Shown here one piece after another: positions 398 through 30,725 of a stretch of 46,012 bases of DNA. The position numbers and the translations under genes are program-made. The stretch spans positions 1 to 46,012 of the forward strand of contig JAAYAH010000174.1 of NCBI GenBank assembly GCA_012719445.1, in the 5' to 3' direction. Position 1 is the first letter of the stretch. Each line of letters opens with the position of its first letter. This stretch comes from Actinomycetales bacterium (GTDB lineage: Bacteria; Actinomycetota; Actinomycetes; Actinomycetales; Kineosporiaceae). A model generated the notes under the pieces. That model saw nothing but the letters and a program-made list of their open reading frames with translations. It was not told the origin of the DNA and did not search any database.

Positions 398-1966
398 GTG
401 ACCGACGTGTTCCGGGAGACTCTCGGCAACCTGCTCAAGGCCCGCTTCCCGCTGCTGTGCGTCGAGTCCTTCGAGGAACACCGCGTCCTCGCCGAGATCG
501 CCGCTGTGGCGACGGACCCCGTCCGGGTCAGGACCTCGCGGAACCTGGTGACCTGGTCGCTGACGGAGGGACTGGTCCGCCCGGACGGGACGCGGCTCGA
601 GGAGAGCAACCGGCCGGAGCACGCGCTGCGCCAGGCGCTGCACACGGAAGAGGCCACGGTCTTCGTCTTCCGCGACCTCCACCCGTTCCTCGGGGACGGC
701 CAGCGACCGGGAGACCCCGCGGTGGTCCGCCTGCTCCGGGACGTCTGCGCGGCGTTCAAGTCCGGCCCGGTCGCCCGGTCGCTCGTGCTCGTCTCCCCGA
801 CGCTGCAACTTCCCGTCGAACTGGAGAAGGACGTCGCCGTCGTGGACTTCCCGTTGCCACGCGTCGGGGAGATCCGGGCGCTCCTGGACGACATGATCCG
901 CTCGAACATCGGGTCGGGACGGCTCACCGTCACCCTGGACGACGCGGGTCGGGACCGGCTGGCCACCACGGCACGAGGGCTCACCCTGCAGGAGGCCGAG
1001 AACGCCTTCGCCAGGGCCATGGTCACCGGGGTCACCCTCAGCGAGGCGGACGTCGACGCGGTGCTGGAGGAGAAGCGCCGGGCCGTGCGGACCGCCGGGT
1101 TGCTGGAGTGCGTCCGCGTCGACATCGGGCTCGACGACGTCGGCGGCCTGGAGAACCTCAAGCAGTGGCTGGTCAAGCGCCAGGACTCCTGGCTCGCCGA
1201 GGCCGCCAGGTACGGTCTCCCCAACCCCCGGGGCATCCTCATCACCGGCGTGCCCGGGTGCGGCAAGTCGTTGACCGCCAAGGCGACGTCGGCGGCATGG
1301 GGCCTTCCCCTGCTGCAACTGGAGATGGGCAGGGTGTTCGCCGGCCTGGTGGGGTCCAGCGAGCAGAACATGCGGCGTGCGCTGCGGACCGCCGAGGCCG
1401 TCGCCCCCTGCGTGCTGTGGCTGGACGAGGTCGAGAAGGGGTTCTCCGGAGCCGGTCCCGGCTCGGGTGACTCCGGGACGGCGTCGCGGGTGTTCGGCTC
1501 GTTCCTCACCTGGATGCAGGAGAAGGACGTCCCGGTGTTCGTCATCGCGACCGCGAACGACATCGAACGCCTTCCGGCCGAGTTCCTCCGCAAGGGCCGG
1601 TTCGACGAGGTGTTCTACGTCGACCTGCCCACGGCCGCCGAGCGCGGCCAGATCTGGTCGGTCCACCTGGACCGCAGGCTGCGGAACGCGCCCGCAGCCG
1701 GCGGGCTGGTGGTGGACGACGCCGTGACGCGACGGCTCGTCGAGGCCAGCGAGGGGTACTCGGGTGCCGAGATCGAGCACGCCGTCATCGCGGGGCTGTT
1801 CGAGGCCTACGCGGAACGTCGTCCGTTGACGGTGGAGGACATGCTCCTCGCCCTGGCCGCGACCGTCCCGCTCAGCGTCACCCAGGCCGAGCAGGTGGAA
1901 CGGATCCGCACCTGGGCGAATCTGAGAGCTGTGGCAGCGACCGCCGCCTACGACAGGTTCGCGTGA
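398..1966 (+). CDS. Ycf46-like AAA+ ATPase
   Basis: Predicted 522-aa AAA+ ATPase, first gene of a five-gene operon. The N-terminal 200 residues ([20 protein letters not shown], then a [11 protein letters not shown] segment) resemble the N-domain of the Ycf46 group of plastid and bacterial AAA proteins. Residues 284-291 are the Walker A loop [14 protein letters not shown] at 339-344 is Walker B, and the LRKGRFDE segment near residue 400 carries the expected arginine finger. The start was placed at GTG 398 because family similarity begins there; the frame is open further upstream, but that stretch is low-complexity Arg/Pro. It probably acts as a cytosolic ATP-driven remodeller for the membrane proteins encoded just downstream. 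The substrate is unknown. Confidence 0.85.
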
Positions 1967-2002
1967 GAGACCGCCGGGTCCAGCGGGACGAGGAGCGTGA
2001 GG

Positions 2003-2470
2003 ATGAGCATCTCCGTGGTACTGGTGCCGTTCGTGGTCGCCGCGGTCGCCGCCTGGGAGGTCCGCAAGGGGGGCCGGCCCCAACCGGACGAGGCCGGGCA
2101 GACGAGGACGGTCTGCGCGGTGAGGACCCGGATGCGGGACACCGGTCTGCTCGGCGCGGCGCTGAGGGAGCTGGGCGCGGTGGTGACGGAGACGGACGGG
2201 GAGCTCGTCGCCGTCTGGCAGGAGGTCCGGGCCCGGTTCGTCCGCGACGAGGACGGGATCTGGACGGCGCACTTCACCGGGACCGTCGACGAGACCCGGG
2301 CCGTCGAGGCCGTGCAGGCGATCGACGCCGCGTACGGACGCCATGTGCAGCGGGCGGTCGTCCAGCGGCTCCGGGACCGCGCCCCCGAGGCCGGGATGCT
2401 GCTGGAGTCGGAGTCGGTGGGCGAGGACTCCGCCGTCACCCTGGTCTTCGCGGTTCGAGGGGAGGGGTGA
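2003..2470 (+). CDS. DUF1257 (Ycf35-like) protein with an N-terminal membrane anchor
   Basis: About 155 aa. Residues 1-20 (MSISVVLVPFVVAAVAAWEV) form one hydrophobic helix. The rest (CAVRTRMRDTGLLGAALREL, then strands and a VQAIDAAYGRHVQRAVVQRL helix) matches the DUF1257/Ycf35 pattern as I know it. Typical members lack the anchor, so the membrane segment is notable. ATG 2003 is preferred over GTG 1997 because GAGGAG at 1990-1995 is 7 nt from the ATG and only 1 nt from the GTG. The gene follows the AAA+ gene after 36 nt and nearly touches the DUF2997 gene. Ycf46, Ycf35/DUF1257 and DUF2997 genes are also neighbours in cyanobacteria (family knowledge). Biochemical role not known. Confidence 0.75.
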   Translation: MSISVVLVPFVVAAVAAWEVRKGGRPQPDEAGQTRTVCAVRTRMRDTGLLGAALRELGAVVTETDGELVAVWQEVRARFVRDEDGIWTAHFTGTVDETRAVEAVQAIDAAYGRHVQRAVVQRLRDRAPEAGMLLESESVGEDSAVTLVFAVRGEG

Positions 2471-2472
2471 CC

Positions 2473-2742
2473 GTGTCCGATGACCAGGGCCGGGCGTCCG
2501 GCACGGAGAGCGCGCGCAGGATCGTGATCCGGGTGGCCGTCGACGGCTCGGTGACCGCCGAGACCAGCGGCATCCTCGGGGAGAGGTGCCTCGACTACCT
2601 CCCCGTCCTGGAGGACCTGCTGGAGGCGAGGACCGTCTCCAGCGTGTACACGGCGGACCGCGACCGGGTCGCGGAGACGGACCCGGTGCCACGGCAGGAG
2701 GTACTCCCCCGGGAGGTGCGCCATGAGCTGGACCAACCCTGA
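2473..2742 (+). CDS. DUF2997 family small protein
   Basis: 89 aa. The core (RIVIRVAVDGSVTAETSG, then a conserved-looking Cys in GERCLDYL and a helix ending in VSSVYTADRD) fits DUF2997, a small family of two strands, a Cys and a helix found beside Ycf46/Ycf35 genes. GTG 2473 lies 5 nt after GGAGGGG and 3 nt after the previous stop, which suggests translational coupling. An upstream in-frame GTG at 2467 is possible. The last 20 nt overlap the next gene. No catalytic motif is visible; it may be an adaptor or substrate of the AAA+ protein (inference). Confidence 0.7.
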   Translation: MSDDQGRASGTESARRIVIRVAVDGSVTAETSGILGERCLDYLPVLEDLLEARTVSSVYTADRDRVAETDPVPRQEVLPREVRHELDQP

Positions 2743-3532
2743 CCCCGTCGAGCAGGAGGCCTGGCGGCGGCTGACCAGCACCGGCTGGCGGGTCCTGCAC
2801 AGCCTCTGGCTGCTCGTACCGATCTTCAGCTGCGGGCTGTTGACCTGGGCCGGCTTCGTCTACATCGGGGTGCGGACCCGCCGCGCCACCTGGTGGGTGC
2901 CGGGGATCCTCTACGGCGCCGCCATGGTCACCGTCTTCGTCCTCCTGGAGGTGGGTGACGACGCGAGGGCGGAGGAGTTCACGGCGCTGGAGGACGCCGG
3001 GATGACCGTCTGGGTCAGCCTCTGGCTCGCCGGCATCGTGCACGGCCTCATCGCCAACCACCGGTGGCTCAACTGGCAGGCGCGGTACCCCTGGAACGTC
3101 TACGGCACGGCGGTTCCCCCGCCGCTGCCTCCCGGGGCGCGGCCAGGACCGCTGCCCGGCGTCGGGTACGCCGTGCCCGGCCAGCCGACGGCGCCGCAGC
3201 CGGACCGGCAGCCGGCCGGCACCTGGACGCCGAGCACCGGCCCGAGCACCGGCCCGAGCAGCGGCGAAGACGTGCTGAGCGCCGAGGTGCAGGTCGACGT
3301 GAACACCGCGGACGCCACGGAGCTGGCGGTCCTGCCCGGGTTCGACGGTCACCGGATCGACCGGGTGCTGTCCACCAGGACGTCACGGGGCGGTTTCGCC
3401 AGCGTCGAGGAGTTCGGCCGGGCGGCGGAGCTCCCGCCGCACGAGTTCCTCCGGCTGCGCCCCCACCTCAGCTGCTCACCAGGGCGGGGTGCCGCGCCGC
3501 CGTCCGGCTCGGGTCGCGTCCTGGACATCTAG
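2723..3532 (+). CDS. Three-helix membrane protein with ComEA-like helix-hairpin-helix domain
   Basis: 269 aa. Hydrophobic helices lie at about residues 28-50, 58-75 and 94-111. A Pro/Gly/Thr linker (130-180) follows, then a helix-hairpin-helix unit at 190-250 (VDVNTADATELAVLPGF, then a FASVEEF segment) of the ComEA type. The loop between helices 1 and 2 is basic (RTRR) and that between 2 and 3 is acidic. The positive-inside rule therefore puts the HhH domain in the cytoplasm, unlike ComEA itself. ATG 2723 has a GGGAGGT site and overlaps the DUF2997 gene by 20 nt. In this operon it could tether a DNA- or protein-binding module near the AAA+ protein (inference). Confidence 0.75.
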   Translation: MSWTNPDPVEQEAWRRLTSTGWRVLHSLWLLVPIFSCGLLTWAGFVYIGVRTRRATWWVPGILYGAAMVTVFVLLEVGDDARAEEFTALEDAGMTVWVSLWLAGIVHGLIANHRWLNWQARYPWNVYGTAVPPPLPPGARPGPLPGVGYAVPGQPTAPQPDRQPAGTWTPSTGPSTGPSSGEDVLSAEVQVDVNTADATELAVLPGFDGHRIDRVLSTRTSRGGFASVEEFGRAAELPPHEFLRLRPHLSCSPGRGAAPPSGSGRVLDI

Positions 3533-3535
3533 CCG

Positions 3536-4291
3536 GTGTCCCCGGTGGACGCGAGCCCCGAGGGGACCTGGCCCGACCGGACCGGGCCCGACCGGACCGA
3601 CGTTGTCCGGGTCGCCCGGATCCTCGCGGAGACCCTGGCCGAGGGGCCGGGCAGGCGGACCGCGTGCTGGGTCCAGGGGTGCTCCATCCGCTGCCCGGGG
3701 TGCTTCAACCCCGGCTACCTCCCGGCCGACGGCGGGGAACTGCTGACCGTCGACGCCCTCACCGAACGGGTGCTCGCCCCGCACACCGACGGGCTCACCC
3801 TGCTCGGCGGGGAGCCGATGGACCAGGCCGGGCCGCTCGCCGTGGTCGCGGCCCGGGTACGCGCCGCCGGTCGTTCGGTGATGACGTTCACCGGGTTCAC
3901 GCTGGAGCGGCTGCACCGACTCGTCGCCGCCGGTCGGGACGACGTCGCGGCCCTCCTCGCCGCCACCGACGTGCTCGTGGACGGCCCCTACCTGGCCGAC
4001 CGACCGGACCGGCGGCGTCCCTGGATCGGCTCGACCAACCAGCGGTTCCACGTGCTCGGGCCTCGGCTCGGTGACCTGTCGGGACTCCTGGCGACGCCCG
4101 AACGGGTGGAGGTCAGGGTGAGCACCCGAGGGGAGGTCAGCGTCAACGGGTGGGCGGACGTCTCCGCCCTGGAGCTCCTGCTGGACCAGACCCTCCCGAT
4201 GCCGGACCAGGACCCCTCGGACCAGGACCCCTCGGGCCAGGACCCGCCGACCCCTCACCCGGAGACGAGCTGGAAGCCGCTCGCCCGGTAG
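3536..4291 (+). CDS. Small radical-SAM activase-like [4Fe-4S] protein
   Basis: 251 aa. The CX3CX2C cluster motif (CSIRCPGC, C49/C53/C56) is followed by a GGEPM motif near residue 93. This is the arrangement of short radical-SAM proteins related to NrdG/pyruvate formate-lyase activases (4Fe-4S single cluster family). Such enzymes reductively cleave S-adenosylmethionine, often to make a glycyl radical on a partner protein, but no glycyl-radical enzyme is in this window. GTG 3536 begins 3 nt after the previous stop. The C-terminus has a DQDPS-type repeat, probably non-essential. The last 37 nt overlap the convergent GGDEF-EAL gene. The radical-SAM call is firm; the substrate is unknown. Confidence 0.8.
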   Translation: MSPVDASPEGTWPDRTGPDRTDVVRVARILAETLAEGPGRRTACWVQGCSIRCPGCFNPGYLPADGGELLTVDALTERVLAPHTDGLTLLGGEPMDQAGPLAVVAARVRAAGRSVMTFTGFTLERLHRLVAAGRDDVAALLAATDVLVDGPYLADRPDRRRPWIGSTNQRFHVLGPRLGDLSGLLATPERVEVRVSTRGEVSVNGWADVSALELLLDQTLPMPDQDPSDQDPSGQDPPTPHPETSWKPLAR

Positions 4292-6474
4292 CCGATCAGT
4301 TCGGCGGCCGGCGCGGGAGCTGCGAAGAGGTACCCCTGCCCCCACCGGCAGCCCAGCTCGCGCAGCGTGCTGAGCTGGTCCTCCCGCTCGATCCCCTCGG
4401 CGATGACGGTGAGCCCGAACTCCTCGCCGAGCGTGAGGATCCCCTTGGTGAGGGCGTTGTACTCGTTGCCGGTGCCGAGACCCGCCACGAAGCTCCGGTC
4501 GATCTTGACGAGGTCGATGGGCAGGCGGCCGAGGTAGGCCAGGGAGGAGTACCCGGTCCCGAAGTCGTCGATGGCCAGGTGGACGCCCATCCGGCGGAGC
4601 TCCGTCAGCTCGGTCAGCCCGTCGTGGGTGTCGTCGATGAGCATGCTCTCGGTGAGCTCCAGCACCAGCCGGTCCGGAGCGAGCCCGACGTTCTCGAGCA
4701 CCTCGGCGACCTTCGCGGCGAGCCCGGTCCGCAACTGGCGGACCGAGAGGTTCACCGCGATGTTCACCGAGGTTCCCTCGGCGTCCCAGGCGACGGCCTG
4801 ACGGACCGCCTCGCCGAGCACCCATCCCCCCAGGTCCGCGATGAGCCCGCTCTCCTCGGCGACCGGGATGAACTCCGCGGGCGGGAGCAGGCCGCGGGTC
4901 GGGTGGTTCCAGCGGACGAGGGCCTCGGCGCTGCCCATGGTGCCGGTGTCGAGGTCGACGACCGGCTGGTAGTGCAGCACCAGATCGCCGCGGGTGATCG
5001 CCTCGCCGAGTTCCAGCCGGAGGTCGTGTCTGGTGGCTCCGGACCGCATCCCCGGCTCGAAGGACACGACACAACCCCCGCCACGTGCCTTGGCCGCGCG
5101 CATGGCCAGGTCGGCGTCCCGGAGCAGATCGCTCCTGGTCGTCCCGGAGGTGCCCACGGTCACGCCGATGCTCGCGCTCACGCTGACCGTCCTCCCGCCG
5201 ACCAGGACCGGTCGGGACACCTCCTCCAGGATGCGCTCGGCGATCCGGACGCTCCGGTCGGGCCCGTCGATGCTTTCCAGCAGGAGCACGAACTCGTCAC
5301 CGCCGAGCCGCGCCAGGGTGTCCCCGACCCGCACCAGGCGGGTGAGCCTCTCGGCGATCTCCACGAGCAGGGTGTCCCCGTCGTCGGGGCCGAGGCTGTC
5401 GTTGACCGCCTTGAACCCGTCCAGGTCGACCAGCAGGACGCCGATCCGGGCATCCCCGGCGGGAGCGCCCTCCATCAGCCGGGCCAGCGCCTGGTGCATC
5501 CGGTCCCGCAGCAGGGCCCGGTTGGGCAGCCCGGTCAGGTCGTCGTGGAAGGCCCGGTGACTGAGCTGAGCCTGCAGCGACAGGTGCTCGGTGATCTCCC
5601 GGGTGTGCAGGACCAGCGCCCTGACGTCCGGGTCGTCGAGTCGGTCGCTGATCATCGTCTCCATGTACCGGCGGCCCCGGCCCGTGTCCCGCAGTTGCCA
5701 GACGACCGGCTCCCGGGCGTGCTCGTCCACCGCGCGGGCGGCGACCAGGGCGGAGAGCAGGCGGTGCCCGTCCTCGGGGTGGGCGAGGTCGCTGACCCGC
5801 CTGCCGACGACGCCGTCGGTGGTCAGGCCGAAGACGGTCGTCGCCGCCGCGCTCTGGTAGCGGACCAGCCCGGTCGAGTCGCAGAGAGTGATCACGTCCG
5901 AGGAGCCGGCCACCAGGGCCCGCATGTGCCGCTCCCTTGCCGCGAGGCCCTCGACCAGCCGGGCCTCCCGCTCCCGGGACCGGATGAGCAGCAGCCCGAT
6001 CACGATCATCGTCATGGTCATGGTGCCGATGTTCGCCATCACGTGCGAGGGCGGCACCAGCGCCACCTGGATGATCACGATCGCGACGACGACTTCGCCC
6101 AGGACGACGAGAGCGGGCACGACGCGGAGCTCGTAGGCGGCGTACAGCACCGGCAGGCACAGGAAGATCTGCCCGGACACCGAGGCGTCCTTGGTCAGCA
6201 GGTCGAGAGCCACGATGATCGTCACGGTGAGGGTCGGGACGAGAGTCCAGAACAGCGAGGGCATCCGGTGCGGCACGCGCAGGACCATCGCGCCCAGGAC
6301 GGCGAGAGGTCCCACCATGAGCAGAGTGATCAGTTGCCCGACCGGTCCGCCGGCGTAGGCCGGGACCGCCACGCCGAGCACCATCATGATCAATGCCGAG
6401 CCGAGGAGGAACACCCCACTGGTCCGAGCGGCCGCGCCCCGATCGCGCGGCTCCAGCAGTCTCGTGAACCTCAC
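4255..6474 (-). CDS. Membrane PAS-GGDEF-EAL cyclic-di-GMP protein
   Basis: 739 aa from GTG 6474. Residues about 15-175 hold several hydrophobic helices, then a PAS-like sensor (about 185-300). The GGDEF domain has an intact GGDEF at 391-395, with an RVGD inhibitory-site motif five residues upstream. The EAL domain has its EAL signature near 517, followed by NLSVRQL, LELTES, DDFGTGYSS and AEGIE. All key residues look intact, so it could both make and hydrolyse cyclic-di-GMP. The frame is open upstream of 6474 but codes Arg/Pro-rich sequence, so the start at VRFTRLLEP is preferred. It is convergent with, and overlaps, the radical-SAM gene. Confidence 0.9.
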   Translation of the reverse strand: MRFTRLLEPRDRGAAARTSGVFLLGSALIMMVLGVAVPAYAGGPVGQLITLLMVGPLAVLGAMVLRVPHRMPSLFWTLVPTLTVTIIVALDLLTKDASVSGQIFLCLPVLYAAYELRVVPALVVLGEVVVAIVIIQVALVPPSHVMANIGTMTMTMIVIGLLLIRSREREARLVEGLAARERHMRALVAGSSDVITLCDSTGLVRYQSAAATTVFGLTTDGVVGRRVSDLAHPEDGHRLLSALVAARAVDEHAREPVVWQLRDTGRGRRYMETMISDRLDDPDVRALVLHTREITEHLSLQAQLSHRAFHDDLTGLPNRALLRDRMHQALARLMEGAPAGDARIGVLLVDLDGFKAVNDSLGPDDGDTLLVEIAERLTRLVRVGDTLARLGGDEFVLLLESIDGPDRSVRIAERILEEVSRPVLVGGRTVSVSASIGVTVGTSGTTRSDLLRDADLAMRAAKARGGGCVVSFEPGMRSGATRHDLRLELGEAITRGDLVLHYQPVVDLDTGTMGSAEALVRWNHPTRGLLPPAEFIPVAEESGLIADLGGWVLGEAVRQAVAWDAEGTSVNIAVNLSVRQLRTGLAAKVAEVLENVGLAPDRLVLELTESMLIDDTHDGLTELTELRRMGVHLAIDDFGTGYSSLAYLGRLPIDLVKIDRSFVAGLGTGNEYNALTKGILTLGEEFGLTVIAEGIEREDQLSTLRELGCRWGQGYLFAAPAPAAELIGYRASGFQLVSG

Positions 6475-6646
6475 CGGAACGGTATCGACAGATCCCCGGG
6501 CGGTCTGTACCGACGACGGATCCGCGGGAGAACACCGGCAGAGCACGCGCCGTCGGGCGAAACGGACGAACGGGGGCCCGTCACCGGATCGGGCGCGTGG
6601 GCGGAGATGATGGGACCGGCCCGACGACATCCACCGGAGGGACACC

Positions 6647-6868
6647 ATGAGCGGCGAGCAGCCGGCCGGGGGCGAGATCCCCTGGATCGCGGCCGGGGGC
6701 GGGGACTCCCCGGATGCCCAGCAGGTCGAGATGCGGCGGAACGGCGACGTCATCGAGGTACGGGACAGTCTCGACCCCGGGGGTCCGGTGCTGCGGTTCA
6801 CCCCGGCCGAGTGGGACGCCTGGCTGGACGGCGTGCGGAAGGGCGAGTTCGACCACCTCTGCGACTGA
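6647..6868 (+). CDS. DUF397-like small protein
   Basis: 73 aa. The segment EVRDSLDPGGPVLRFTPAEW and the C-terminal GVRKGEFDHL match the second half of DUF397 proteins, which are common in actinomycetes beside a helix-turn-helix regulator. The usual N-terminal W..SS..NG.CVEV half is replaced by an unrelated sequence (MSGEQPAGGEIPW). ATG 6647 has a GGAGGG site 5 nt upstream. No helix-turn-helix partner is adjacent. Function unknown. Confidence 0.75.
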   Translation: MSGEQPAGGEIPWIAAGGGDSPDAQQVEMRRNGDVIEVRDSLDPGGPVLRFTPAEWDAWLDGVRKGEFDHLCD

Positions 6869-7379: not shown

Positions 7380-7676
7380 TCAGCGGTTCAGCGACTTTGC
7401 GAGCTGCTCGTCGGTGTCGGAGAGGGCCTGCGCCGCCTGCTCGAGGTACTGGGCCATGCCGTCCAGCCCTTCGACGGTCTTGCGCATCCCGTCGTTGAAC
7501 TCGGTGTACGAGGTGTCGAACGCCTTGGACGAGCTGTCGGTGACGTACCCGCCGTTGACCAGGCTGTCCACGAGGGCCTTCAGTTCGCCGAGCCGGCCCT
7601 CGATGTCACCCTGGCCGTTCCGAAGGTTCTTCGCCGCGTCGCGCATGTCGTCGTAGGTGACGTTCAGGTTGGCCAT
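7380..7676 (-). CDS. WXG100 family protein without the Trp of WXG
   Basis: 98 aa, the usual WXG100 length, with two amphipathic helices separated by a turn. In place of W-x-G the turn reads LVNGGYVTDSS. The second helix (KAFDTSYTEFNDGM onward) fits ESX/type VII substrates. ATG 7676 has GGAGGT 6 nt upstream. WXG100 proteins are normally helical dimers exported by ESX machinery, but no EccC, EccB or partner WXG100 gene is in this window. It lies 178 nt downstream of the LysM-BTAD gene on the same strand and may be co-transcribed with it (inference). Confidence 0.8.
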   Translation of the reverse strand: MANLNVTYDDMRDAAKNLRNGQGDIEGRLGELKALVDSLVNGGYVTDSSSKAFDTSYTEFNDGMRKTVEGLDGMAQYLEQAAQALSDTDEQLAKSLNR

Positions 7677-7854
7677 CGATGTACCTCCAGGTGTCGGTCC
7701 CCCCGGTATCCGGGGCATCCCCTCCCGATGACCGGGGCGGTCACCGGGTCGTACTGAGCTGCCGGGTCGTGCCCCGAACTCCGGCAACGGTCGGTGTGCG
7801 GGCCGGTCGGCGTGGCCACCGTCCTGACGCGACGGGTCGAGCGCCGGGACCCGG

Positions 7855-10800
7855 TCATGCGGTGCGGTTCCGGAACCCGGGGGCCAGCGCCTCGAGGAGG
7901 GCGTCGGTCTCGGGCTCGGTGGCGACACCCCGGCGGCGGAGCGTCTCGTCCATCCGCCGGGCCGTCTCCTCCACCGCCGCCGGTCCCTCGCGGGACGCCA
8001 GGCGGAGCCGGTCGCGCCACAACGCCTCACCGGTCGGCACCAGTCGCAGGCCGAAGTCGAGAGCCTGGACGGCGTCCTGCGGCCGCCCCAGCGCCTCCGC
8101 GAGGGCCGCGGCCCTGCGCGCGGCGGCGGTCACCACCACCCGGGCGTCCCTCGCGGCGGAGTGGAAGGCCAGCCAGCCGTAGTGCCCCGCCGGGACGGCG
8201 CTGAAGACCTCACCCCGGGCCAGGGCGAGGGCCGACCGCAGGCCGGAGGCCTCGCCGGTCCCCTGACCACCGGCGACCAACGCCCGGAAGACGTCCCAGT
8301 CGCAGACGACGTCGTCGGCCAGCCGCCACCGGCCGTCCCGGCCCACCCGGAGGCGGGGTCCGCCGAACGCGTCGTAGCCGAGCCAGTCCTGCACCTCGCG
8401 GACGGTCCTCGCGACCACGTCGTCGTCGACCCCACGCGGCCAGATCACCGAGCGGAGGACGGCGTCGTGCAGCCCGTCCCGGTGCAGGGCCGCGGCCACC
8501 ACCACCTCGGTGAGCAGTGCCAGCCGGGCGGCTTCGACGGGGCGCGTCCCCCGGGCGACGCTCGGGTGCACGTCCACCCGGACCGGCCCGAGCAGGCGCA
8601 CGGCGACCGGAGCCCCGTCCATGCCGAACAGCGGAACCTGGATGGCGGCGAGGGCCTGGGCGGAGGCGGGACCGTCCGGATCCGGGTCGTCACCGGCACC
8701 CAGCGCCGCGAGCGCAGCCCCCTGCGGGGTGAGCCCGGCGACGACCTGCGCGCTGCGGGAGCGTTCCCGCTCCGCCGCCCGGAAGAGATCGGCGAGGGCG
8801 CGGTAGGCGACAGGTGGCAGCCGCCGGGCCGTTCCCCGGACACCGAGCAGGGCGATCTCCAGGCTGCCGTCCTGGCCGACCACGAACCGCCAGCGGGCCG
8901 CGGGGGTCTCACCGACGCACACGACGGCGAGCGGCGAGCGTCCCCTGCCGACGAGGGCGTGCAGCCGGGTGGCCTCCTCCGGCGTGGGCGGCCCGGAGAG
9001 GACGAGGACGTGCGGGCGCCACCGCTGGCTGCCCCGCACCACCCGACCGGAGAGCACCCCGTGCATCCCGAGGGTCGCCAGCAGTTCGGTCTGCCGCGCG
9101 TCGTCGGTCTCGACGTCGTCGAGCAGGTCCGCGAGCCGGTCGACGTGGGTGATCAGGCGGGGAGCCACGGCGGAGAGGTCGTCGCCGAAGCCGACGAGGG
9201 TGACCCGGACGCCGTCGGACCAGCCGTTGGTCGCGAGTTCCACCGCCATCGAGGCGGCGACCTCCCGTGCCCGGTCCGGCTGTCCGCAGACGGCGACGAG
9301 ACCCGGGGACGCCTCCAGGTCGACGAGGATCTCGTGCCCGTCGGCGCTCGCCACATTGACCAGCGCGGGGTACGGCGCCGCGACGAGGGCCGGATCGGTC
9401 GTCCCTCCGGAGGCGGAGCCGCCGCCCACCGCGTCGACACCTGCCGGAGAGGCGACGCCCGCGGCAGAGCTGACGCCCGTCGCGGAGCCGCCGCCTGCCG
9501 TGTCGACACCTGCGGCGTCGAGGTCGTCCGCCGTCACGGACCAGGACCTGCCGTCCTGCTCGGCCCGCCACGGCGCCGGGGGGCGTCCGGGCTCGGCCGA
9601 ACCCGGTGCCAGGTGCAGGACGACGTCGTCGACCCCCACCTGCGCGACGAGCACGTCCGGCAACGGGAGGCCGTCGGCCGACCTGCCCGCGGCGAGGTGA
9701 CGCAGTGCCCGGTCCAGGAGCGCCGACCGCTCGGGGTCGGCCGCCAGCCGGAGCGGATCCGACCCGTCGTCACGGGGGTCGCCGTAGGGGCCGCGCCGGG
9801 CGGACAGCGCGGTGAGCACGCCCGCGAGGAGCAGGCCGCCACCGAGCAGGCCACGCGCGGGTCCGGGGGCCCCGGTGTCGTCGGCGACCACCTGCCCGGC
9901 GGTCGCCTCGTCCGCCGGGAGCGCGCCCTGCCCGCCATCGAGGCCGACACCGGCTCCGGTTCCACCGTCAGCGCCGACACCGAGATCGCCGCCGGCTCCG
10001 GGACCACCGTCAGCGCCGGCTCCGGGATCGCCGCCGGATCCGGCTCCGAGATCGCTGTCGGCCCCGCTGTCTAGCCCGCCTCCCGGACCGCCGTCGGGGG
10101 ATCCGGGACCACCGGAGGACGGGTCGAGGGGATCGGTCGCGCCGGACCCGGCACCGGGTCCCCGGTCGTCCTCCCGGGCGGAGGCATCGGTCCCGCCGGC
10201 GGACCCGGCGTCGGTGGGATCGGTGATCCCGCTGCCTGTTGCGACCCCCGCGGCGGGATCCGCTGCCTGCCCCGCCCCGGAGCGGGACCGCGAGACCGGT
10301 GTCCGGACCGGGTCGACGACGGTGATGCCGGGTCCCTTGGCGTCGGACGGCATGACGAGCATCCAGCCCGGCTGGATCAGGTCGGCGTCGACGAGCCGCC
10401 GCCCGTCGGCCTGCACCCGGTTCCGGTTCAGCGCGAAGATCTCCTTGTAGCGGAAGGGGTCACCCAGGGTCCTTTCCGCGATGTCCCAGAGGCAGTCGTG
10501 CCGTCGGCCGTGCGGCGGCCTCACCTCGTACCAGAGCACCGGAGCGGCCTCGGGGGACGACTTCACCGCCGAGGAGGGGTCCTGCCCGTCGACGGCGCCC
10601 ACCCGGCTCGACGCCTCGGCGGATGCGGAGGGGGCGCTGGTGGGGGTGCTCGCCGTCGCCGGGTCGGTCGGCCCCGGGGTCTGCTGCGCGGCGCTCGGAG
10701 TCGTCGGCAGCACCGACACGGCAGCCGGCCGGGGAGCCGGGGCCGTCGCAGGCGGTGGCACGAGGGTGACCGCCCCGCCGAGCAGCAGCACGGCGGCGAC

Positions 10801-28538: not shown

Positions 28539-30725
28539 TCAGCCTCTGGCGGTACGGGTCGCCGACGGGGTCCGCACCGCCGCGCCCGGCCCGCCGCAGT
28601 GGTCCGTCAACCAGGTGTCGACCTCCGTCGCGGGCATCGGCCGGGCCAGGTGGTACCCCTGCCCCACCTGGTAGCCGATGAGGGTGAGCGCCTCGACCTG
28701 CTCCGCGCTCTCCAGGCCCTCGGCGACCGTCAACAGGCCGAGACCCTCACCGATGACGACGGCCGCCCTGGCGAGGGCACCCCGACGGCCGGAGGTGGAG
28801 ACGTCGTGCCCGAGGGTGTCCGCGGCGGCGGCGAGGGTGAACGCCCGGTCCACCTTGATGACGGCGACCGGAAGCCGCTGCAGGTTGGCGAGCGAGGCGT
28901 GGCCGTTGCCGAAGTCGTCCACGGCCAGTCGTACGCCCATCGACGCCAACCGCTCCAGCCGGCCGGCCGCCCTGTCGTTGTCGCTCAGCGAGGTCTCCCT
29001 GATCTCCAGGACCAGCGCCGCGGGGGGCAGGCCGTGGCGACGCAGCGCCTCGACGACCCGGCTGTCGAACTGGTCCTCGGAGAGCTGCCTGCCGGAGACG
29101 TTCACCGAGACCCACAGCCCGGACCCGGGATGCCGGCCGCGCCAGTCGGCGAGGGCGGCCAGGGCCGAGCGCAGCGCCCAGTCGCCGATCTCGACGATGG
29201 ACCCGTCCCGCTCGGCCATGGGGATGAACTCGCTCGGCGGGACCAGGCCGAGGTCGGGGTGGTGCCACCGGGCCAGCGCCTCGAACCCGATCGGGGTGAG
29301 GGTGGTCAGGTCGAGGATCGGCTGGTAGTGCAGGGACAGCTCGCCACGGGCGAGGGCGCTGGGGAACTCCGTCGCCAACCGGTACCGGAGCCGACCGGCG
29401 CTGTCCTCCTGCTCGGAGAACATCTCGACCCGGGCCTTCCCCCGGGACTTGGCCCGGTACATCGCGACGTCCACCCGGCGCAGCAGGTCCTCGACCTCGT
29501 CCTCCCCGCTCGGGGTGACCAGTCCGATGCTGGCCGTGACCCGCACCGTGTCCGTCCCCAGCCGCACCGGCTCGCCGAGCACGCCGAGGAGGCGGACGGC
29601 GATCTCCCTGGCCTGCTGCTCCGAGTCGACGCCGTCGAGGAGGACGGCGAACTCGTCCCCGCCGAACCGGGCCGCGACGTCCTGGACCCGGAGCGCCCCG
29701 CGCAGCCGGTCCGCGATGGCGACGAGGAGTTCGTCGCCGGCGGCGTGGCCGAGGCTGTCGTTGACCGCCTTGAAGTCGTCCAGGTCGAGGTAGAGCAGGC
29801 CGAGGCCTGCGCCCTCTCTCCGGCTGACCATCCGGCGCACCAGCTCGGTGAAGGTCCGCCGGTTGGCGAGCTCGGTGAGGGGATCGTGGCGCACCAGCCT
29901 GCTGCTGGTCATGGCGAGGGCGACGTGACCCGCCAGCGCCGTCACCCCGGCGCACGCCTCGGCGAGCCGGTCCCTGCGCCCTCGCACCAGCAGGCAGCCG
30001 AAGAGCCGGTCGCCACGGATCGGCCAGCACCGCCACGGCCGGGTGCCGTACCCCGACCGGACCAGCGCGGTGGCGAGGTCGGCCGGGGTCGAGCCGCCCG
30101 GCGGCTGGTCCTTCCCGTCGAGGAGGCCCTGCACCGGGAGGACGGGGGCCCGACGCCTGCCGGTCGGCTCGGCGAGGACGCCGCCGGACGAGGGGTTCCG
30201 GACAGGGGTGCCGCCGCCGGACGAGGGGTCCCGGACAGGCGTGCCGCCGGTCGACCAGAAGGCACCGGACTCCTGGACCGGGTCGGTCCCCCTGACCCCG
30301 CCGACCCTGCCGATCACCTCCAGCGCCGACTCGTGCCGGACCAGCACGAGAGCCTCCGCCGACGTGCCGGTGAGGACCCGGTCGAGGGCATCCCTTGCGG
30401 TCTCGAAGACCCTGGACGGTCCGCCCGGGGTGGACAACTCGGGCCCGAGGGCGGCCAACGCGGCCCCCCGGGCGCCTGCCCGCCGTACCCGGTTGTGCAG
30501 GGTGTGCAGGGTCATGGCGAAGAGACCGGTGAGCGATCCGCAGACGGCGCCCCCGCCGACCGCGGCGGCACCCGGGTCGACGAGCAGCCCGACGGAGGCA
30601 CCGATGAGGGCTCCGGTCGGCAGGCCGAGGACCGCCAGGGCGTGCGGCGTCACCCGGTCCTGGTCCACCGGGGAGTTGTCGGCACGAGAAGGCCGCACGT
30701 GAACCGGTCGGGCGGGAATGGACAC
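28539..30725 (-). CDS. GGDEF-EAL cyclic-di-GMP protein with GAF-like sensor
   Basis: 728 aa. Two hydrophobic helices lie near 30-75, followed by a GAF-like region (about 100-280) carrying an inserted 11-residue GTPVR.PSSGG repeat. The GGDEF domain has an intact GGDEF at 355-359, with an RVQD inhibitory-site motif five residues upstream. The EAL domain (EAL at about 482) has some substitutions: DDFGNGHAS instead of DDFGTGYSS, and LEIRETS instead of LE.TES. Synthesis of cyclic-di-GMP looks possible; hydrolysis is less sure. GTG 30725 is tentative. Confidence 0.88.
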   Translation of the reverse strand: MSIPARPVHVRPSRADNSPVDQDRVTPHALAVLGLPTGALIGASVGLLVDPGAAAVGGGAVCGSLTGLFAMTLHTLHNRVRRAGARGAALAALGPELSTPGGPSRVFETARDALDRVLTGTSAEALVLVRHESALEVIGRVGGVRGTDPVQESGAFWSTGGTPVRDPSSGGGTPVRNPSSGGVLAEPTGRRRAPVLPVQGLLDGKDQPPGGSTPADLATALVRSGYGTRPWRCWPIRGDRLFGCLLVRGRRDRLAEACAGVTALAGHVALAMTSSRLVRHDPLTELANRRTFTELVRRMVSRREGAGLGLLYLDLDDFKAVNDSLGHAAGDELLVAIADRLRGALRVQDVAARFGGDEFAVLLDGVDSEQQAREIAVRLLGVLGEPVRLGTDTVRVTASIGLVTPSGEDEVEDLLRRVDVAMYRAKSRGKARVEMFSEQEDSAGRLRYRLATEFPSALARGELSLHYQPILDLTTLTPIGFEALARWHHPDLGLVPPSEFIPMAERDGSIVEIGDWALRSALAALADWRGRHPGSGLWVSVNVSGRQLSEDQFDSRVVEALRRHGLPPAALVLEIRETSLSDNDRAAGRLERLASMGVRLAVDDFGNGHASLANLQRLPVAVIKVDRAFTLAAAADTLGHDVSTSGRRGALARAAVVIGEGLGLLTVAEGLESAEQVEALTLIGYQVGQGYHLARPMPATEVDTWLTDHCGGPGAAVRTPSATRTARG
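30182..30248 (+). repeat. Two 33-bp coding repeats
   Basis: Two imperfect direct repeats of about 33 bp encode the duplicated GTPVR.PSSGG unit inside the sensor region of the GGDEF-EAL protein on the minus strand. Confidence 0.6.

Follow-up and report, generated by a model that had tools for sequence, protein, structure and literature searches.

Ycf46, Ycf35 and DUF2997 are long-conserved unknowns of cyanobacteria and plastids. The genome of an Actinomycetales bacterium of the family Kineosporiaceae contains, at the edge of a contig (GenBank JAAYAH010000174.1; the whole stretch of 46,012 nucleotides is here called the window), a compact operon of five genes, g1 to g5. They encode a Ycf46-type AAA+ ATPase, a distant DUF1257/Ycf35-like protein, a DUF2997 protein, a putative membrane protein with a helix-hairpin-helix (HhH) domain, and a radical S-adenosylmethionine (radical-SAM) protein similar to NrdG. 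The locus raises the question of whether the five proteins work together and on which partners they act. Here we show that the five genes recur as one module, and that g1 and g4, which are unrelated to each other, usually end in the same peptide, which may serve as an address tag.

Recurrence and spread of the five genes

The genome scan covered one genome per species with an alignment of g1 as the query, and the best 80 of 556 relatives were taken. Together with the window, 11 hand-picked plasmid and phage records, and one locus from a DUF2997 search (L002), they form a first set of 93 loci; a copy of the window (L001) and a locus lacking g1 (L003) were omitted. The genes g2 to g5 were detected by iterated profiles, some of the cassettes are cut by contig ends, and the loci are related to one another and not independent. 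All five families are present together in 34 of the 80 scan loci and in 38 of the 93 loci, which are those 34, the window, and three plasmids. The order of the genes is shuffled into 14 arrangements: 12345 occurs in 13 loci, 45123 in 11, 34512 and 13524 in two each, and ten orders occur once. Adjacent genes are nevertheless tightly packed, more so than expected by chance, since 127 of 143 gaps in the 38 full loci are within -60 to +50 nucleotides, with a median of 9. The pairwise distance matrices of the five proteins are correlated with r of 0.67–0.86, including a contribution of common host descent, and these values were reached in none of 500 permutations each; for g5 against g1, r is 0.86. 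The remaining 55 loci include 28 cyanobacterial ones with g1 and g2 only, ten with g1 only, and several cut by contig ends. A sixth conserved gene was sought among the 437 neighbouring open reading frames (ORFs) of the first set, and none of the six clusters present in at least four loci was convincing. It is well supported that the five genes form one module. An earlier note on this DNA had described the genes as packed on one strand with short gaps or overlaps and had proposed them to be one system; both claims agree with the co-occurrence in shuffled order and with the layout of the window, where g3 and g4 overlap by 20 nucleotides. The recurrence runs against the first part of the refutation set out in the note, that the five genes would seldom be together elsewhere.

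The cassette is found on plasmids. A tblastn search with g1 identified all five genes, arranged as in the window, on plasmids of Rhodococcus (MOBF, conjugative), Arthrobacter (MOBP, conjugative), and Paenarthrobacter (typed non-mobilizable), whose g1 proteins are 53–55% identical to that of the window. A Paenibacillus plasmid carries g1-g2-g3-g5. The carriers include at least one complete chromosome (L015), one of 80 viral contigs contains all five genes (L136), and integrase and resolvase genes are among the neighbours of the cassette. Judged from record titles or tree labels, full sets occur in the five phyla Actinomycetota, Bacillota, Candidatus Melainabacteria (Gastranaerophilales), Fusobacteriota, and Bacteroidota, and a Methanosphaera bin contains g1 with g4. 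In the tree of g1, the cassette proteins are separate from cyanobacterial Ycf46 as well as from the types of injection systems and phages; support is weak for the fork that unites them (44 rows, 80/58), which includes L054, a locus without g4. The Actinomycetota and their plasmids form one group (99/99), Methanosphaera is placed beside Bacteroidota (94/69), Sebaldella beside Bacilli (97/80), and the Gastranaerophilales locus L028 beside Clostridium (97/80). The misplaced hosts suggest horizontal transfer, with the limit that bins can contain foreign contigs.

The distribution is patchy. A DUF2997 protein of this type is present in one of 13 genomes of the window's family, its own genome only, and three of 396 genomes sampled from its phylum contain a DUF2997 match, two of them above the cut-off. 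A g1 close to that of the window was found in nine of 394 genomes of its class (Actinomycetia sample). No g4 was seen in the stretches read from seven of the nine (L256–L262), and the system is thus rare, in two of 394 genomes. The system is not actinomycete-wide. In the class of L028, g1 is present in 51 of 240 genomes. In the plasmid collection, g1 matches 1584 records by tblastn, 467 of them from Klebsiella, all with less than 60% identity. In Rhizobium and Pseudomonas phages (L007, L010), genes for g1, a DUF1257-like protein, and DUF2997 are located a few genes upstream of those for DnaB helicase and DNA polymerase I.

A C-terminal peptide common to g1 and g4

In most cases, g1 and g4 have the same C-terminal peptide, (G/E)-R-x-(L/I/V/M)-(D/E)-hydrophobic-COOH, which is a new observation; examples are RGGRTLDF, GRVLDI, and ERTIDL. 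The earlier note had mentioned neither this tail nor the Mrr variants described below, nor the occurrence on plasmids and in phages. According to the strict pattern [GE]R.[LIVM][DE][FLIVWYM]-end, in the first-set loci that hold both genes, window included, the tail is present in 35 of 43 g1 and 47 of 56 g4 proteins. It is absent from all 41 g2, 39 g3, and 41 g5 proteins of the first set, and one of 50 g1 proteins from loci without g4 carries it. A looser pattern matched one of the 437 neighbouring ORFs, an Mrr_cat protein of L028. A second set comprised 37 loci (L216–L252) of 40 from the class of L028, two of which repeat the first set. Its 35 further loci gave the tail on 34 of 35 g1 and 37 of 40 g4 proteins, and on none of 37 g2, 35 g3, and 34 g5 proteins; in all 37 loci, four of 437 other ORFs matched, each of them an Mrr_cat protein (L216, L218, L220, L236). 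Three loci without g4 by profile (L253–L255) were excluded from this count, and one of their three g1 proteins carries the tail. In the 5.4-Mb genome of the window, a degenerate tail pattern had five matches and the reversed-pattern control four, and only g4 ends at a real stop codon.

The tail is not limited to single copies of g4. A locus has up to seven g4-type ORFs, and all seven in L045 are tail-bearing. Eight related loci (L028, L216, L217, L218, L220, L236, L253, L254) encode Mrr_cat endonuclease proteins with a C-terminal tail, which in L217 reads GKKLDI. The seven Mrr proteins that were inspected by eye have hydrophobic starts and a GSGDGGVDI...QCK signature. TPR proteins next to the Mrr proteins also bear the tail in several loci. 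In L089 and L085, a very loose search pattern found a second protein with a tail that has drifted like that of the AAA protein (GKLEMD with RKIEMK, and IKLELD with RQMEIN), and the same pattern found a small neighbouring protein of L078 with the tail-like end FSNLEL.

Two further settings were noticed. Spirochaete loci (L006, L095, L078, L089) have a Ycf46-like AAA gene and an NrdG-like gene within contractile injection gene sets, a label that is annotated for L006 and was read by eye for L078 and L089, the two loci whose small neighbouring proteins have the tail-like ends given above. The viral contig L195, which contains g1 and DUF2997, has three ORFs (2270-2956, 2929-3633, and 8161-10152, as stop-to-stop frames) that end in KRIVE(L/V); one of these proteins is YpsA/DprA-like (SLOG), and the AAA protein there ends in TRVVES. 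It is possibly another tail code.

Two roles of the tail were considered and rejected. It is hardly the site at which the radical-SAM enzyme acts, because cyanobacterial Ycf46 is tail-bearing without g5 nearby, and its motif differs from that for proteasome docking.

The five proteins of the window

The features of the operon are listed in Table 1. The Walker motifs of g1, the HhH protein encoded by g4, and the CX3CX2C cluster of g5, all reported in the earlier note, were recovered and are conserved in relatives or matched by a domain model. The g1 protein is a Ycf46-type AAA+ ATPase, as judged from its near full-length similarity to cyanobacterial matches (43–46% identity, for example over residues 4–521 of 522) and intact Walker motifs, in which G284, P286, G287, G289, K290, and S291 of Walker A and L340, D343, E344, E346, and K347 of Walker B are invariant in a six-row alignment.

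Table 1 Positions in the window of the five-gene operon and its features
Feature	Position	Strand	Basis
Five-gene operon	398-4291	+	Five ORFs, compact
g1, Ycf46-type AAA+ ATPase, 522 residues	398-1966	+	PF00004 (AAA) 94.5 bits
Walker A of g1, GVPGCGKS	1247-1270	+	Sequence; conserved in relatives
Walker B of g1, LWLDEVEK	1415-1438	+	Sequence; conserved in relatives
g2, distant DUF1257/Ycf35-like protein, hydrophobic N-terminus (residues 1-17)	2003-2470 (start alternatively 1997)	+	Iterated profiles, hydropathy
g3, DUF2997 protein, 89 residues	2473-2742	+	PF11211 46.6 bits (cut-off 24.1)
G-x-x-C motif of g3 (Gly36, Cys39)	2578-2589	+	Alignment, model
g4, protein with multiple predicted transmembrane segments, C-terminal HHH_3 domain, and tail	2723-3532	+	PF12836 40.6 bits (cut-off 27)
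HHH_3 domain of g4, residues 187-249	3281-3469	+	Pfam
C-terminal tail of g4, G-R-V-L-D-I-stop	3512-3532	+	Sequence
g5, NrdG/Fer4_12-type radical-SAM protein, 251 residues from 3536	3536-4291	+	PF13353 (Fer4_12) 100.4 bits (cut-off 22)
CX3CX2C [4Fe-4S]/SAM motif of g5	3680-3703	+	Three Cys invariant in 37 rows

The earlier note had assigned g2 to DUF1257 and had regarded it as a membrane anchor, and each claim stands in part. No Pfam or NCBIfam model matches g2, and PF06868 (DUF1257) has zero matches across the whole window genome. The iterated g2 profile joins the DUF1257-annotated proteins of L012, one of its seeds, and of L013, and the relationship to DUF1257, supported by iterated profiles and not by PF06868, is distant. 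Of the 41 g2 proteins from loci with g4, 34 have a hydrophobic N-terminus, as do two of 25 from other loci at the same cut-off (hydropathy of at least 1.6 over 17 residues, with start codons chosen by script); one of these two, L057, owes its hydrophobic start to a start codon placed too far upstream. In the AlphaFold2 model, however, the first residues form a weak strand. The model has a mean predicted local distance difference test score (pLDDT) of 85.1 and an alpha/beta fold with a long helix. VIA-align ranked kinase KA1 domains first (5wi2_A, Z 9.8, root-mean-square deviation 2.3, 76 residues aligned), and Foldseek, with a best E of 0.015, gave no match at E of 0.001 or lower. KA1 domains bind membranes and peptides, and a scaffold role of g2 would therefore fit. 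The length of g2 is usually about 150 residues, and it is about 250 residues in two Bacilli and about 420 in five Gastranaerophilales-type loci; these long forms (L022, L026, L033, L035, L038, L039, L042) resemble, by eye, tandem DUF1257-like repeats.

Cys39 of g3 is invariant in 45 of 45 rows and Gly36 is conserved in at least 90% of them. The AlphaFold2 model of g3 (pLDDT 73.8) is beta-beta-alpha and places Cys39 near the N-terminus of a predicted helix comprising residues 36–50; neither Foldseek nor VIA-align gave a fold match with Z of at least 2. Sequence searches of solved structures with g2 and g3 returned nothing convincing. The possibility that DUF2997 is a glycyl-radical spare part was rejected, as Gly33 and Gly36 are not invariant, and the protein is also met in phages and plasmids in which no g5 was found nearby.

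A transmembrane-like stretch was identified by hydropathy in 47 of 51 g4-type proteins. A crude profile detected the HhH domain in 36 of the 38 full loci, with L028 and L051 as the exceptions. One g4-type protein (L049:2473-4170) contains six HHH_3 stretches, and a second g4-type protein of L022 (9660-10655) has a GYF_2 domain ahead of HHH_3. The idea that HhH and Mrr proteins exclude each other was dropped, because the crude HhH profile and a sub-threshold Pfam match in L236 oppose a clean split.

The g5 protein has a GGEP-type motif, invariant like the CX3CX2C cluster in a 37-row alignment, and a GSxNQ motif, matches PHROG 626 'anaerobic ribonucleotide reductase small subunit', and is nearest by profile to the solved structure of pyruvate formate-lyase activating enzyme. 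It scores 87.8 bits with the NrdG equivalog model TIGR02491, under the cut-off of 126.1. No NrdD (PF13597) was matched in the window genome, which is rated 99.3% complete, and neither was Gly_radical; as positive controls, the two models matched in six and three of 14 genomes, respectively. NrdD was also not matched in 12 of 29 other full-set hosts, some of which are incomplete bins; 30 other hosts were tested and 13 lacked a match, and L032 was set aside because its short contig contains no g5. The sub-cut-off score and the missing NrdD and Gly_radical matches indicate that g5 probably acts on something other than NrdD and is hardly a normal NrdG. A search for the glycyl-radical motif in the large ORFs of all loci gave scattered matches, which recurred only among closely similar loci. 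Eight viral contigs (L137, L139, L140, L142, L143, L148, L155, L178) contain g1, DUF2997, and an NrdG-like gene without g4, and a motif scan of their available pieces showed no phage NrdD.

The surroundings of the operon are mostly of chromosomal kinds: nine of ten further ORFs from elsewhere in the window were assigned to Pfam families, including phosphoglucomutase, FeoB, and cyclopropane synthase. A large ORF of the GGDEF/EAL kind (28539-30725, - strand) was confirmed by Pfam, and another at 4255-6801 was judged as such from its sequence only. The end of the ORF at 7380-8030 (- strand) resembles, by eye, a small WXG100-type secretion protein.

Proposed mechanism, alternatives, and related systems

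The reading that we favour, at slightly better than even confidence, is a horizontally mobile and probably membrane-associated AAA+ machine built on a Ycf46/DUF1257/DUF2997 core, in which tail-tagged clients dock on a common receptor and a component is matured by the radical-SAM enzyme. The ATPase g1 would be the motor. With a possibly KA1-like fold and a hydrophobic N-terminus, g2 may be a scaffold or membrane tether, and g3, whose invariant cysteine is close to a predicted helix start, may be a small partner. The g4 protein would be a membrane client whose HhH domain binds DNA. The AAA protein of most relatives and the clients carry the common peptide after a variable linker, and they may therefore use the same receptor site, so that the ATPase could assemble, hold, or remodel docked clients. 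In relatives, the place of the client would be taken by several copies of g4, by TPR proteins, or by an Mrr endonuclease with a hydrophobic N-terminus, which makes DNA at the membrane the most likely target of the machine: DNA is suggested by the HhH and Mrr clients, a membrane site by the membrane segments, and mobile DNA by the plasmids, integrases, and resolvases. The membrane-tethered complex proposed in the earlier note is plausible from the hydrophobic segments of g4 and the start of g2, although the latter is modelled as a weak strand. The radical-SAM enzyme g5 would be freed from ribonucleotide reductase and modify or activate one component, and our guess for its substrate is g3, with its invariant cysteine, or a client. 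We speculate further, and only tentatively, that the cassette encodes an undescribed class of prokaryotic machine, a membrane-bound ring of Ycf46-type AAA+ proteins that reads an address code. The six-residue tail would mark exchangeable clients, the repurposed activase would place a radical-derived modification on the small cysteine protein, and the whole would be used against or by mobile DNA. The clients of such a code would be HhH membrane proteins, TPR proteins, the Mrr endonuclease, and possibly parts of contractile injection systems.

Several observations weigh against the proposed machine. The main one against a simple two-tail model is that the g1 of the window ends in AAYDRFA, without the tail of most g4-associated relatives, and docking through two tails is therefore impossible in this copy. 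Of the 28 cyanobacterial Ycf46 proteins, 26 end in [QK]R[LM]EF with no g4 or g5 found nearby, and the tail is thus independent of these two genes. Because the seeds of the g4 profile were full-length and included the tail, the tail rate of g4 may be inflated; g1 was identified without the help of the tail. In two of the Mrr loci (L253, L254), g1 is present but the profiles detected none of g2, g3, and g5, and the g1 of L253 lacks the tail. In 15 loci of the two sets, g5 is near g1 without g4, five in the first set (L006, L012, L054, L078, L089) and ten in the second. HHH_3 domains are also found without DNA binding, for example in PsbU.

The cassette could alternatively be an immune system against phages or plasmids, with g4 and the Mrr proteins sensing DNA or acting as nuclease effectors, the AAA protein serving as a switch, and g5 arming the complex; we consider this possible, on balance doubtful. 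The D...QxK site of the tail-bearing Mrr_cat proteins in eight loci looks intact by eye, and the plasmid location, the integrase and resolvase neighbours, the patchy distribution, and the variable, multi-copy clients would fit defence. However, PADLOC (2023) gave only partial similarity in the AAA domain (IetA, TRIP13) and a short mad8 match for g1, and none for g2 to g5. The neighbours are not enriched in defence genes: 64 PADLOC families were matched by 120 ORFs next to five-gene cassettes, compared with 173 by 119 ORFs at cyanobacterial Ycf46 loci (random samples of 242 and 264, respectively, one control ORF being dropped for length), and these counts of redundant models are a weak measure. 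In five Gastranaerophilales-type loci, the cassette has in its vicinity a conserved gene identified by eye as aroA, which suggests long residence. A role in stress or envelope physiology, in which the machine tunes membrane or exported proteins like cyanobacterial Ycf46 and the DNA-related domains of the clients are incidental, is rather unlikely. Both g2 and g4 look membrane-linked, and a study of threonine-treated Microcystis reports that ycf46 is induced more than 11-fold (PMC12172450). The g1 of five-gene cassettes is nevertheless apart from cyanobacterial Ycf46 in the tree, albeit by the weak fork noted above, and clients with HhH, TPR, and Mrr domains were not found near the cyanobacterial genes; the plasmid location also speaks against this role.

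A device for DNA uptake or plasmid transfer would have g4 as a ComEA-like DNA receptor and the ATPase powering or gating passage. The layout of transmembrane segments and HHH_3 resembles ComEA, and the cassette occurs on plasmids, but the score of g4 with TIGR01259 (21.9 bits) is far below the cut-off of 152.35. No pilus or channel family is present in the recurrent neighbour clusters or among the 25 listed of 89 neighbour Pfam families, at least one carrier is a complete chromosome, and the tail that g4 has in common with a cytoplasmic ATPase speaks for an HhH domain in the cytoplasm; together, these points make this device improbable. That g5 is an ordinary NrdG, a chance neighbour of an unrelated AAA operon, would explain its TIGR02491 and PHROG matches. 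This is very improbable given its sub-cut-off score and the missing NrdD and Gly_radical matches in this and, for NrdD, other hosts, and because g5 remains with the cassette when the gene order is shuffled and correlates with g1 in its distance matrix.

If the proposed machine exists, its core is that of the cyanobacterial and plastid proteins, and a cassette that adds recognizable clients, a radical-SAM enzyme, and a common tail to it provides a handle on the cargo and mode of action of this AAA+ family. The tail is a sequence rule for finding further clients, and cultured carriers exist, for example Microbacterium oleivorans NBRC 103075 and Neobacillus sp. Marseille-Q6967; the Microbacterium locus L030 and the Neobacillus locus L026 have the tail on both g1 and g4. 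It would also be new for this enzyme type if an NrdG-type activase worked in the absence of any glycyl-radical enzyme. Literature searches found no description of the five-gene system, and text in subscription journals or under other names would escape them.

Among known systems, NrdG has in common with g5 the Fer4_12 family, CX3CX2C, and GSxNQ, and differs in that g5 is below the NrdG cut-off in a genome with no NrdD match. ComEA has the same combination of a membrane segment and an HHH_3 domain as g4, which differs by its low TIGR01259 score and its C-terminal tail. The IetA model of IetAS matches residues 270-493 of g1 with 76.8 bits, whereas g2 to g5 match nothing in PADLOC and no protease family is among the Pfam matches of the five proteins. 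Different regulators of the proteasome use one C-terminal docking peptide, the HbYX or GQYL tail. The cassette is similar in that unrelated proteins carry one C-terminal peptide, and dissimilar in that the motif is another and no proteasome gene is present. A further related system is the Ycf46/Ycf35/DUF2997 module of cyanobacteria and plastids. In Synechocystis, duf2997, ycf35, and fed7 form cluster g, and a ferredoxin is therefore also a neighbour there (PMC4284462); in red-algal plastids, the retention or loss of ycf46 and ycf35 follows habitat (PMC5940233). In the 28 cyanobacterial loci, g3, g4, and g5 were not found within up to 7 kb on each side, and the adjacent DUF1257-like protein starts with MSHFS and lacks the hydrophobic N-terminus. 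The module nevertheless has the homologous AAA protein, the adjacent DUF1257-like gene, and the similar C-terminal end QR(L/M)EF in common with the cassette.

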